Below are positions 50,333 to 54,443 of a stretch of DNA of 64,000 nucleotides, one piece after another. Origin of the DNA: Bifidobacterium breve (GTDB taxonomy: Bacteria > Actinomycetota > Acidimicrobiia > Acidimicrobiales > Acidimicrobilacustridaceae); the NCBI GenBank assembly GCA_945878725.1, contig CAMCTY010000001.1:186001-250000 (forward strand), read 5' to 3'. Position 1 is the stretch's first letter; every line of letters starts with the position of its first letter. The notes beneath the pieces were generated by a model that saw only the letters and a program-made list of their open reading frames with translations, was not told the origin of the DNA and did no database searches. The translations under genes and the position numbers were made by a program.

Positions 50333-51235
50333 GTGACGCTCACCAGACGCGAGATCACGGCTCTCCTTGAGAAGCACGGTCTTTCCCCGAGTCGTGCGCT
50401 CGGCCAGAATTTTGTGGCGGATCCGAACACTGTTCGTCGCATTGTGCGCTTGGCCGAAGTGAACTCGGGCGATCACGTCGTGGAGGTCGGACCAGGTGTG
50501 GGATCGCTCACCACCGCACTTGCCGAGGTTGGTGCCCACGTGACGGCTGTTGAGTTGGATCGCCATCTTCTTCCCGTTCTTCGCGATGTTGTCGAACCCT
50601 TGGGAGTCCGGGTTATCTCGGGCGATGCCCTCACGGTTGATTGGACGGAGATTCTCGGAGATCACGACCGTTGGAAGCTCGTTGCGAACCTTCCGTACAA
50701 CGTGGCGACCACGATCGTGCTGCAGTTGCTCGATGATGTGCCGGCCATCCATTCAATGCTCGTTATGGTGCAACGTGAAGTGGGCGAGCGTCTTGCATCA
50801 GTTCCAGGATCAGGCGCCTACGGAATCCCGACGGTGAAGCTCGGGCTTTGGGCGACAGCGGAGGTTGTCGGTCGGGTGCCGGCGACAGTGTTCATCCCGC
50901 AACCCCGAGTTGAGTCGGTGCTTGTTCGCATAACGCGTCGGGACTCGCCGGCGGTGTCGGTCGATCATGACCAACTCATGTCGCTTGTGCGGACGGCTTT
51001 TGGCCAACGACGCAAAATGTTGCGTCGTTCGCTCTCGGGGATCGTGACGACTGAACAATTTGAGCAGGCTGGGATTGCCCCCGACGATCGTCCCGAACGA
51101 CTCGGGGTCGAAGCATGGGGAGCGCTGACCGAGATTGTGTTCGGCGAACCCGGGCCCGGTGTAGAGAATTCCGGTGCGAACGACGTAGCGGAGTACGAGC
51201 CCGGTCGTGACAGTGCCGACCGCCAGGAACAATGA
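50333..51235 (+). CDS. rsmA: 16S rRNA dimethyladenosine transferase
   Basis: 300 residues. SRALGQNFVADPNTV, VVEVGPGVGSLTTAL (SAM loop), AVELDRHL and NLPYNVAT (adenine-binding N-L-P-Y) are the KsgA signature. It makes the two m6,6A residues at the 3' end of 16S rRNA. The start is the GTG at 50333. ispE follows 7 bases on. Confidence 0.96.
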   Translation: MTLTRREITALLEKHGLSPSRALGQNFVADPNTVRRIVRLAEVNSGDHVVEVGPGVGSLTTALAEVGAHVTAVELDRHLLPVLRDVVEPLGVRVISGDALTVDWTEILGDHDRWKLVANLPYNVATTIVLQLLDDVPAIHSMLVMVQREVGERLASVPGSGAYGIPTVKLGLWATAEVVGRVPATVFIPQPRVESVLVRITRRDSPAVSVDHDQLMSLVRTAFGQRRKMLRRSLSGIVTTEQFEQAGIAPDDRPERLGVEAWGALTEIVFGEPGPGVENSGANDVAEYEPGRDSADRQEQ

Positions 51236-51242
51236 TCGGGAC

Positions 51243-51980
51243 ATGAATGAGATTCCCTCACCGGTCACCCGTCTCGTCGCTCCGGCGAAACTTACGATCG
51301 GTTTGCGGATCACGGGGATTAGAAACGACGGTTTCCATCTCATCGACTCGGAGATGGTGACGCTCGATCTACTCGACCGACTCGAGATTTCCGACGGCGA
51401 TTCTCTCGAAATCATCGATGACTCCACCGGATCGACCCGTGAAATCGGGGTTGGTGACGACAATCTCGTTCGTCGAGCTCTGAATTTGGTCGGGAGATCA
51501 GCCCGCGTTCGACTGTTCAAGTCGATTCCGCCAGGCGCCGGGCTCGGCGGGGGCTCGGCTGACGCTGCCGCCATTTTGCGCTGGGCAGGTTTCGACGATC
51601 TCGAAGCAGCAGCGGCCCTCGGAGCCGATGTCGCTTTCTGTCTGGTGGGGGGTCGTGCCCGCGTTTCAGGTATCGGCGAGATCGTCGAGCCTCTGGCCCA
51701 CGTCGATCGCACATTCACGCTCTGGACGCCACCGTTTGGCTGCTCGACGCCGGCGATCTATCGCGCGTGGGACGAGCTTGGTGGCCCCGAAGGCGACTTC
51801 GGGAACGACCTAGAAGCGGCTGCGCTTGTTGTCGAACCTCGGCTCGCGCAATGGCGCGACCGTCTGGCAGATATCAGCGGGCAACGACCGCGGTTGGCTG
51901 GCTCAGGTTCGACTTGGTTTGTGGACGGTGCCTATCCGGGTGACGGTCGAATTGTCGCTCACACGACTCCTCAAACCTGA
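51243..51980 (+). CDS. ispE: 4-diphosphocytidyl-2-C-methyl-D-erythritol kinase, compact
   Basis: 245 residues. APAKLTIGLRITG with the catalytic Lys, DGFHLID, PPGAGLGGGSADAA (GHMP ATP loop) and GADVAFCLVGG with the catalytic Asp are all present, as is LAGSGSTWF. It phosphorylates CDP-methylerythritol in the MEP isoprenoid pathway. It is about 40-60 residues shorter than usual, mostly by short loops and a trimmed C-terminus. The ATG is 7 bases after rsmA. Confidence 0.92.
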   Translation: MNEIPSPVTRLVAPAKLTIGLRITGIRNDGFHLIDSEMVTLDLLDRLEISDGDSLEIIDDSTGSTREIGVGDDNLVRRALNLVGRSARVRLFKSIPPGAGLGGGSADAAAILRWAGFDDLEAAAALGADVAFCLVGGRARVSGIGEIVEPLAHVDRTFTLWTPPFGCSTPAIYRAWDELGGPEGDFGNDLEAAALVVEPRLAQWRDRLADISGQRPRLAGSGSTWFVDGAYPGDGRIVAHTTPQT

Positions 51981-52020: not shown

Positions 52021-52122
52021 CTACTTGCCTGCCGCGCGGCGCTGGAAGCGCGTGCGCTTCAGCATCTTCTTGTGCTTCTTCTTGCGCATTCGTTTGCGCC
52101 GCTTCTTAATGAGAGATCCCAT
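52021..52122 (-). CDS. Ribosomal protein bS22, 33 residues
   Basis: A 33-residue, extremely basic peptide: MGSLIKKRRKRMRKKKH at the start and ending RRAAGK. This matches the actinobacterial bS22 (AURKAIP1/COX24 domain), which sits in the small subunit of mycobacterial ribosomes and is also 33 residues. It lies on the opposite strand to its neighbours ispE and glmU. TAAGGT ends 9 bases before the ATG. Confidence 0.92.
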   Translation of the reverse strand: MGSLIKKRRKRMRKKKHKKMLKRTRFQRRAAGK

Positions 52123-52137: not shown

Positions 52138-52240
52138 GCGGCCCGGGAACGATTAAGCGAAACGACGATCTGTGGAGGTTCATCGACCGCAGAATCGCTA
52201 CTCGCTACTGCGTAGCTGTGAGGAGAAGAAGGCGAAGTTG

Positions 52241-52312
52241 CTCGGGGGCAGGGACTCGAACCCCGAATGACTGGACCAAAACCAGCCGTGTTGCCAATTA
52301 CACCACCCCCGA
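52241..52312 (-). tRNA. tRNA-Gln (anticodon UUG)
   Basis: 72 bases. The acceptor stem is TCGGGGG/CCCCCGA with discriminator G. The anticodon arm GCTGG-TTTTGGT-CCAGT gives anticodon TTG. The T arm has the GTTCGAGTC core. The CCA end is not encoded. It is the only tRNA in the window and sits upstream of glmU on the other strand. Confidence 0.95.
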
Positions 52313-52343: not shown

Positions 52344-53423
52344 ATGCCTTCGAAGCCGCTTTCAGCGATCGTGCTCGCCGCCGGCGAGGGGACGCGCATG
52401 CGGTCATTGCGCCCAAAGCCGCTCCACCTGCTGTGCGGCAAGGAGATGGTTCTGTACGTGCTGGATTCTCTCGCCGATAGCGATGTCGGGCGGGCCGTCG
52501 TGGTCGTGGGGCACGGTGCTGAACGGGTGACGGAAAAGTTGCTGAATGCCGCGTCCGAGACCCGACTCGAATTTGTGGAGCAGGAGATTCAGCGGGGGAC
52601 CGGCGACGCTGTCGGAGTCGCCCTCACCGCCTTCGGCGTCGATGAGCTTGATGACGCAGACGCCGACATTCTCGTTCTGCCTGGAGATACCCCGTTGCTG
52701 CGGGCGTCCACGATCGCTGCCCTGGTTGAGGCACACCGGGCGACCGACTCCGCCTGCACGCTCCTGACTGCCGACATGGATAATCCAACGGGCTACGGGC
52801 GGGTAGTCCGGGGCAAAGACGGCCGAGTGGACCGGATCGTCGAAGAGGCGGACGCCTCAGATCACGAGCGCATGATCACGGAAGTCAACACCTCGATCTA
52901 CTGCTTTCGGGCAGGTGTGTTGGGCCCGGCTCTTCGGCGGATTACGACAGAGAACGCGCAGGGCGAGTACTACCTAACCGATGTGGTCCAAGTGCTTTCG
53001 GGGGCGGGCTATCGGGTATCTGCCCAGATCGCGAATGACGCGGCCGAAACCCAAGGCGTGAACGATCGCCTGCAACTGGCGGTGGCCGAGAAGGAACTGC
53101 GCAGGCGCACTAATGAGGGGTGGATGCGTCAAGGCGTCACAATGGTCGACCCGACGAACACCTATGTCGACACGACGGTGATTCTGGCATCGGATGTCAC
53201 CCTTTTCCCCGGAACCATTCTTCAGGGAGCGTGCACGATCGGAGCCGGTACCGAGATTGGTCCGAACACGAGACTGGTTGATTGCACCGTCGGCACCGGT
53301 GCCGTGATTGAGAACAGTGTCGCTCGAAATTGCACTATCGGCGACGACGTCCACATGGGCCCCTTTGCGGCTCCGGAGCCCGGAACCTCGGTACCGGCGG
53401 GCGCCCGTCTCGGTGCGTCCTAG
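52344..53423 (+). CDS. glmU: GlmU uridylyltransferase lacking the acetyltransferase domain
   Basis: 359 residues; full-length GlmU has about 450-480. The pyrophosphorylase half is complete: LAAGEGTRMRS, KPLHLLCGKEM, QRGTGDAV, LPGDTPLL, NPTGYGRVV and EVNTSIY. A left-handed beta-helix starts (TVILASDVTLFPGTILQG, IGPNTRLVDCTVG) but the protein stops after GPFAAPEPGTSVPAGARLGAS. The part with the acetyltransferase active site (normally KxxxxG...NxGAGT...) is absent. Only 39 bases separate it from prs, so no lost fragment is present. It should make UDP-GlcNAc from GlcNAc-1-P but not acetylate GlcN-1-P. A GTG at 52338 is an alternative start. Confidence 0.92.
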   Translation: MPSKPLSAIVLAAGEGTRMRSLRPKPLHLLCGKEMVLYVLDSLADSDVGRAVVVVGHGAERVTEKLLNAASETRLEFVEQEIQRGTGDAVGVALTAFGVDELDDADADILVLPGDTPLLRASTIAALVEAHRATDSACTLLTADMDNPTGYGRVVRGKDGRVDRIVEEADASDHERMITEVNTSIYCFRAGVLGPALRRITTENAQGEYYLTDVVQVLSGAGYRVSAQIANDAAETQGVNDRLQLAVAEKELRRRTNEGWMRQGVTMVDPTNTYVDTTVILASDVTLFPGTILQGACTIGAGTEIGPNTRLVDCTVGTGAVIENSVARNCTIGDDVHMGPFAAPEPGTSVPAGARLGAS

Positions 53424-53462: not shown

Positions 53463-54443
53463 ATGGAACTTGTCACCAAGAAGCGTCTGCACATCGTCTC
53501 GGGACGAGCGAACCTTCCACTGGCCGAGGAGATCGCCCTACGTCTCGGCGTCACCCTGGGAGACGCGAACCTGGCTGAGTTCGCCAACGGTGAGTTGCAC
53601 ACCCGTTTTGGCGAGTCGGTGCGTGGCGCCGATGTCTTCATCGTTCAGACCCATGCGGGTAACGAAGGCATCTCGGTAAACGACGCGATCATGGAACACC
53701 TGATCATGGTTGATGCCGCGAAACGCGCGTCGGCGAAGAGAATCACTGCGGTCGCACCGTTCTACGGCTACGCCCGCCAAGACCGAAAGTCCGAAGGCCG
53801 GGAACCGATTACCGCGAAACTCGTGGCCAACATGTTCGCTGCTGCAGGTGCAAACCGGCTGATCTCTGTGGATCTCCACTCCGGTCAGATCCAAGGTTTC
53901 TTTGACGGACCAGTCGACCATCTCACGGCGATGCCGGTCCTTGTCGATTACATGGCCAGCCTCGGCGACGACCTCGTTGTTGTGTCTCCCGACGCGGGCC
54001 GGGTGAAAGTCGCCGAACGCTATGCGAACCAATTGCATGCTGATCTTGCGATCGTTCACAAGCGTCGGGTCAAGGGTATGAAGAACACTGTCGAAGCCCG
54101 CGACGTCGTCGGTGAGGTCGATGGTCGGATCTGTGTTCTGATCGACGACATGATCGATACCGGTGGAACAATTGTTGCGGCTGCCGATCAACTCAAGGCC
54201 CGCGGTGCTTCGAAGATCTACGCCGCTTGCACCCACGGTGTCTTTTCGGGGCCCGCCATTGAACGGCTGCAGAACTCGGTCATTTCCAAAGTCGTGACGA
54301 CCAACACCCTGCCGTTCCCGAAGTCGAAGCAGATCGACAAGATCGAAGTTCTCTCGGTAGCCGGGATCATCGCTGACGCAATCGATGCGGTCTTCGAGGA
54401 CACATCGGTCAGCGAGATCTTCGACGGTCATAACCAGAACTGA
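53463..54443 (+). CDS. prs: Ribose-phosphate diphosphokinase (PRPP synthase)
   Basis: 326 residues. FANGELHTRF, RQDRKSEGREPITAK, DLHSGQIQGFFD (about 137-148), VVSPDAGRVKVAERYA and the PRPP loop VLIDDMIDTGGTI are all present. It makes PRPP from ribose 5-phosphate and ATP. It lies 39 bases after the truncated glmU, the same order as in mycobacteria. Confidence 0.96.
   Translation: MELVTKKRLHIVSGRANLPLAEEIALRLGVTLGDANLAEFANGELHTRFGESVRGADVFIVQTHAGNEGISVNDAIMEHLIMVDAAKRASAKRITAVAPFYGYARQDRKSEGREPITAKLVANMFAAAGANRLISVDLHSGQIQGFFDGPVDHLTAMPVLVDYMASLGDDLVVVSPDAGRVKVAERYANQLHADLAIVHKRRVKGMKNTVEARDVVGEVDGRICVLIDDMIDTGGTIVAAADQLKARGASKIYAACTHGVFSGPAIERLQNSVISKVVTTNTLPFPKSKQIDKIEVLSVAGIIADAIDAVFEDTSVSEIFDGHNQN

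Follow-up and report, generated by a model that had tools for sequence, protein, structure and literature searches.

In bacteria, the standard way of making UDP-GlcNAc is considered to run through bifunctional GlmU, which is also regarded as an antibiotic target. The window analysed here (the whole stretch of DNA, 64,000 nucleotides) carries a glmU that stops short of the acetyltransferase site, which raises the question of how glucosamine-phosphate (GlcN-phosphate) is acetylated in this organism and its relatives. The features concerned are the following.

51207-51980, plus strand: ispE, upstream neighbour of glmU.
52240-52312, minus strand: tRNA-Gln(TTG), between ispE and glmU.
52344-53423, plus strand: glmU, truncated, with the uridylyltransferase domain (about residues 1-245) and the first left-handed beta-helix turns (about residues 260-350); the acetyltransferase part is missing.
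53150-53423, plus strand: hexapeptide-repeat remnant of the GlmU beta-helix, which stops where full-length GlmU goes on.
53463-54443, plus strand: prs, ribose-phosphate diphosphokinase, 39 bp downstream of glmU.

The glmU ORF encodes 359 amino acids plus stop from an ATG, with an alternative GTG start six bases 5' of it. From residue 7 onwards the protein was aligned to positions 2-343 of the 452-position TIGR01173 (glmU) model, scoring 345.6 bits, which is below the curated cut-off of 366.85. Pfam returned NTP_transferase and two hexapeptide stretches. The uridylyltransferase motifs LAAGEGTRM (with the G-x-G-T-R-M signature), LPGDTPLL, GYGRVVR and EVNTSIY are present; the C-terminal beta-helix is incomplete and lacks the acetyltransferase site. 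The catalytic region of E. coli GlmU, which we take to include His363, Asn386 and Ser405, lies beyond the end of the window protein, and a Pro in GPFAAPEPG occupies the place of the Arg in E. coli GPFARLRPG, presumably Arg333. An earlier note on this DNA had described a uridylyltransferase half with the beginning of the beta-helix kept and the acetyltransferase site missing, and the extent of the model match bears this out. It was also right that no space is left for a second fragment, since prs begins so soon after the glmU stop. The gene order ksgA-ispE-glmU-prs was found in the window and in relatives. The window's own genome assembly (G000; 2.26 Mb, 44 contigs, 93% complete) yielded neither a second GlmU nor a stand-alone C-terminal domain of the enzyme. 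A very basic ORF of 33 residues on the minus strand (window 52021-52122) appears to resemble a small ribosomal protein of the bS22/AURKAIP1 type.

GlmU length was then compared at increasing taxonomic distance, with membership of the order (Acidimicrobiales) assigned by record titles. GlmU extended to model position 340-344 in 17 of the 20 other species of the genus; the remaining three were a piece with the same end (G017) and two shorter pieces, probably contig ends (G009 and G013). The GlmU of the nearest relative (L022) ends almost identically (...VPAGARLARS). Complete matches ended at about model position 331-344 in 40 same-order relatives, except in G030, where the match reaches position 362 across an in-frame TAG. 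TAG codons within the match near the truncation point were seen in L021 (G030) and L184 (G153), and may be remnants of the C-terminal region that was lost. In a class sample of 198 genomes, none of the 52 order genomes that matched the GlmU model exceeded about 369 bits; those rows with coordinates ended at 333-362, the weaker order rows being listed without coordinates. Other orders of the class had GlmU matches to model position about 431-452, with at least 490 bits for intact genes, and GlmU in the rest of the phylum was full-length among the matches listed. The acetyltransferase domain is also gone in a few genomes of another family of the class (f37) and in Anaerolineaceae (Chloroflexota). 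The truncation is genuine, extends across the order and recurs in other lineages. This agrees with the lineage-specific change that had been suspected, and contradicts the possibility, raised in the same note, of full-length GlmU in all close relatives. Our inference that the domain was lost once, in the Acidimicrobiales ancestor, rests on taxonomy and on the uniform point at which GlmU ends, and not on the GlmU tree.

A sequencing error at 53400-53423, also raised earlier, is excluded by the shared GlmU end across the species of the genus. More broadly, error, assembly break or recent pseudogenisation almost certainly does not account for the short gene: the sister species has the same end, equivalent ends were found across the order families sampled, and the uridylyltransferase domain is open and conserved. 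The one feature in its favour is that the window GlmU lacks the tail of most relatives, a few conserved residues (GPFYT or similar) that stand in place of the beta-helix continuation in 30 of 36 order members and are absent from the window lineage (L001, L022). That same tail, and the partly kept helix, could be taken to mean that a minimal beta-helix suffices for acetylation by the short GlmU. We find this hardly credible, as the catalytic region falls past the end of the protein, the Arg333 position is altered in the order members listed, and the helix is wholly lost in f37 members and in the order member G213, whose GlmU of ~250 residues is the uridylyltransferase domain alone.

No GlmU was detected in eleven order genomes of 95-98% completeness (G077, G097, G113, G156, G185, G194, G200, G209, G211, G215 and G219), nor in MedAcidi-G2B (G463). 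In the latter the ispE-prs interval (L406:403-5833) is filled by unrelated genes, by their sequences apparently encoding aldo-keto reductase, Gfo/Idh, luciferase-like and PhyH-like proteins. Only two weak nucleotidyltransferases were found in 1.31 of about 1.4 Mb of MedAcidi-G2B.

The earlier note had proposed that another enzyme would be needed for acetylation, and a separate beta-helix acetyltransferase was one suggestion. This was not borne out in the own genome: its hexapeptide proteins were assigned as gamma-carbonic-anhydrase-like, WbbJ/WcaF-like O-acetyltransferase, DapD and sugar nucleotidyltransferases, and a hexapeptide replacement was rejected. Replacement by a UAP1-type pyrophosphorylase (PF01704) was likewise rejected, the family being absent from 23 of 24 genomes including G000, so that the uridylyltransferase remains GlmU-type. 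The single PF01704 (UDPGP) pyrophosphorylase among the 24 genomes was L211 (G030:C1:3063911-3065017).

Eukaryotes acetylate GlcN-6-P by GNA1, a GNAT. Human GNA1 (sequence confirmed against 2huz) was used as a query against 26 genomes, and a single orthologous GNAT of ~145 residues accounted for the top matches in many order members. A profile (A1) was built from the order GNATs and run over the class sample, with E<1e-40 counted as a strong match. The own copy (G000:C2:135658-136083, outside the window) matched A1 at E 4e-70, and strong matches were found in 60 of 63 order genomes, all but G002, G153 and G219. Since order members supplied the sequences for A1, matches inside the order are to be expected, and the cases outside it are the informative ones. 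Within the class these were six genomes. In three of family f37 (G152, G225 and G212), GlmU covers model positions 2-244 only, in open frames of 263-304 aa, and the short glmU sits between ispE and prs in G152 and G225; the host genomes of ten extracted full-length f37 GlmUs were all without a strong GNAT match. The other three (G084, G088 and G172, one genus of f48) have the GNAT together with full-length GlmU. Their GNAT has changes at otherwise conserved positions (VVVD to VVVA, NVYR to NVYE), and may serve a different function or mark an intermediate stage. When the scan was widened, the GNAT turned up in Anaerolineaceae and in two MAGs that carry an Acidobacteria label. The Anaerolineaceae genomes were selected for carrying the GNAT and their GlmU was inspected afterwards; it was cut at position 320-333 in all five whose GlmU match was clear, one of them the isolate Longilinea arvoryzae KOME-1 (G458, with a weak match in a long fusion ORF, was left out of this count). 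Among the other carriers from the wider scan, GlmU ends at 240 in G460 and is in contig-end pieces in G459, and none was seen in G454.

Genomes with a clear GlmU state (counts read by hand) comprised 53 with truncated GlmU and the GNAT, 2 with truncated GlmU and no strong GNAT match (G002 and G153), 3 with full GlmU and the GNAT, and 116 with full GlmU alone. Fisher tests of truncation against GNAT, uncorrected for kinship, gave p values of 2e-38 overall and 7e-5 outside the order; both overstate significance because related genomes are treated as independent, and lineages are the useful unit. In a tree of the GlmU uridylyltransferase domain, the f37 short forms were placed beside full-length f37 GlmU (89/82) and the Anaerolineaceae sequences formed a distinct clade far from the order, so these losses are separate. 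The order itself was not one clade in this tree, with some f7 rows and the long-branched G213 falling apart from the rest. The GNAT tree placed the copies from Anaerolineaceae, f37 and the Acidobacteria-labelled MAGs among order sequences, with low deep support, which suggests that the GNAT may have moved between lineages by transfer. Mean column identity of the GNAT was 62% over 38 class sequences, and identity to the Anaerolineaceae copies was 63-67%. The gene adjoins Nudix, glnD and glnB; no amino-sugar genes were found in its neighbourhood.

An AlphaFold2 model of the own GNAT (pLDDT 96.5) has the GNAT fold of GNA1. Its best Foldseek match in the PDB was 3fb3, a T. brucei acetyltransferase (TMq 0.76, 26% identity), and C. 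parvum GNA1 ranked 19th, with other GNATs scoring much the same. We take 3fb3 and 3i3g to be the T. brucei GlcN-6-P N-acetyltransferase; human GNA1 matches them at E 6.7e-16, and a work cited in PMC7909634 (reference 49) supports this identity by its title. In GNA1 of C. elegans, the sugar hydroxyls are contacted by Glu104 and Asp105 and the 6-phosphate by Lys136 and Arg164, and catalysis has been proposed to depend on Tyr149 (PMC3413214). The Glu-Asp pair and the Tyr are invariant in all 38 GNATs. The phosphate-binding Lys (human Lys152, C. elegans Lys136) is Thr, Ser, Asn or Ala in the candidate family, the active-site Cys (human 157) is Ser, and no reliable alignment was obtained for Arg, the other phosphate ligand. 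As a guess, the two invariant Arg of an LTSRPxR motif might hold the phosphate. Foldseek and HMM matches also included AAC(3)/aminoglycoside, polyamine and N-terminal acetyltransferases at similar scores, so the fold alone cannot fix the substrate.

Taken from sequences and a structural model, the reading that we consider likely is that the truncated GlmU is a monofunctional uridylyltransferase and that the ~145-residue GNAT acetylates GlcN-phosphate. After loss of the acetyltransferase domain in the Acidimicrobiales ancestor, the shortened GlmU would act on GlcNAc-1-phosphate, and the stand-alone GNAT would move acetyl from acetyl-CoA to GlcN-phosphate. That a GlmU of such truncated form folds alone follows from the 331-residue E. 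coli structures (1fwy and 1fxj). The GNAT substrate could be GlcN-6-P, as for GNA1, or GlcN-1-P, as for GlmU; in the former case GlmM would have to accept GlcNAc-6-P. A GNAT without the phosphate-binding Lys, beside an ordinary GlmM, makes GlcN-1-P a real alternative. The enzyme that was said to be needed thus has a candidate by sequence, and the likeness to a eukaryotic division of labour is apt, this candidate belonging to the GNAT superfamily of GNA1. More tentatively, and with rather less than even confidence, the step order itself may be eukaryote-like in the order and in the other lineages: a new GNAT family would acetylate GlcN-6-P before the mutase, with GlmU reduced stepwise to a bare uridylyltransferase and the other lineages gaining the trait by gene transfer.

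It is unlikely, in our judgement, that a different GNAT or a hexapeptide transferase of changed specificity acetylates GlcN-phosphate while the co-distributed GNAT has a protein, polyamine or antibiotic role. The mixed matches that leave its substrate unreadable from the fold, its occurrence alongside full GlmU in f48 and its gene neighbours without an amino-sugar link would all fit such a role. They are outweighed by the presence of the same GNAT with independently truncated GlmU in f37 and Anaerolineaceae, by its strong conservation, and by the other assignments of the own-genome hexapeptide proteins.

The rest of the pathway bears on a further possibility raised in the earlier note, that GlcNAc is salvaged from outside and no GlcNAc-1-P is made from glucosamine. 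Salvage would dispense with the acetyltransferase, and true glmM and glmS were indeed not found in the G000 assembly, where only a PMM-like 197-bit match was seen (C9). These absences are probably an assembly gap, consistent with 93% completeness. Against salvage, glmM scored above cut-off in 14 of 18 genomes, GlmM of the same-genus G019 carries the GEQSGH motif, and the other order members tested have glmM, mostly with glmS or a GlmS-like gene adjoining. Since the trait is also order-wide, and is paired with the same GNAT elsewhere, we regard salvage as very improbable. The GlmS-like protein that adjoins glmM in relatives (L109:6918-10391, L110-L125) is giant, at about 1120-1200 aa. Besides its glutamine amidotransferase and SIS domains it has long additional segments, and its C-terminal extension matches no Pfam family. 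It is found in most order members and in the outgroup G042; G085, G053 and G061 have normal glmS. A coupling of this protein to the GlmU change was rejected, because G042 has it with full GlmU, and G085 and G053 combine normal glmS with truncated GlmU.

An entire order is without the acetyltransferase half of GlmU, and a small protein can be named as its likely replacement, so that what was a gap in annotation can be put to a direct biochemical test. If the assignment is true, the GNAT would be a new family of GlcN-phosphate acetyltransferases, and the system would show clearly how the repeated loss of a domain can be coupled to a gene that moves between lineages. A literature search, which had most subscription journals outside its reach, found no report of a GNAT replacing the GlmU acetyltransferase. 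The GlmU of Chlorobaculum limnaeum, mentioned once as being without the C-terminal domain (PMC7725333), is also a bacterial GlmU lacking acetyltransferase, but belongs to another phylum, and no replacement enzyme is given. The apicomplexan GNA1 family is a separate GNAT family that independently gained GlcN-6-P N-acetyltransferase activity, as proven biochemically (PMC5838249); it is eukaryotic and does not involve GlmU. Eukaryotic GNA1 (T. brucei 3fb3/3i3g, human 2huz, C. elegans 4ag7) shares with the candidate the GNAT fold, the Glu-Asp motif, the Tyr and, if our reading is right, the pathway. The candidate differs in its ~26% identity, in not keeping the phosphate-binding Lys and active-site Cys, and in an invariant LTSRPxR-type motif that is absent from GNA1. 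With bifunctional GlmU (TIGR01173; M. tuberculosis 3d98, 4aaw) the window protein shares an orthologous uridylyltransferase domain and the beta-helix start, and relatives with full bifunctional GlmU share its ksgA-ispE-glmU-prs neighbourhood; it is about 110 residues shorter at the C-terminus and is without the acetyltransferase active site. Closest in extent are the two truncated E. coli structures, with the uridylyltransferase domain and the first helix turns; these are presumably laboratory constructs, whereas the truncation in the order is natural and fixed.
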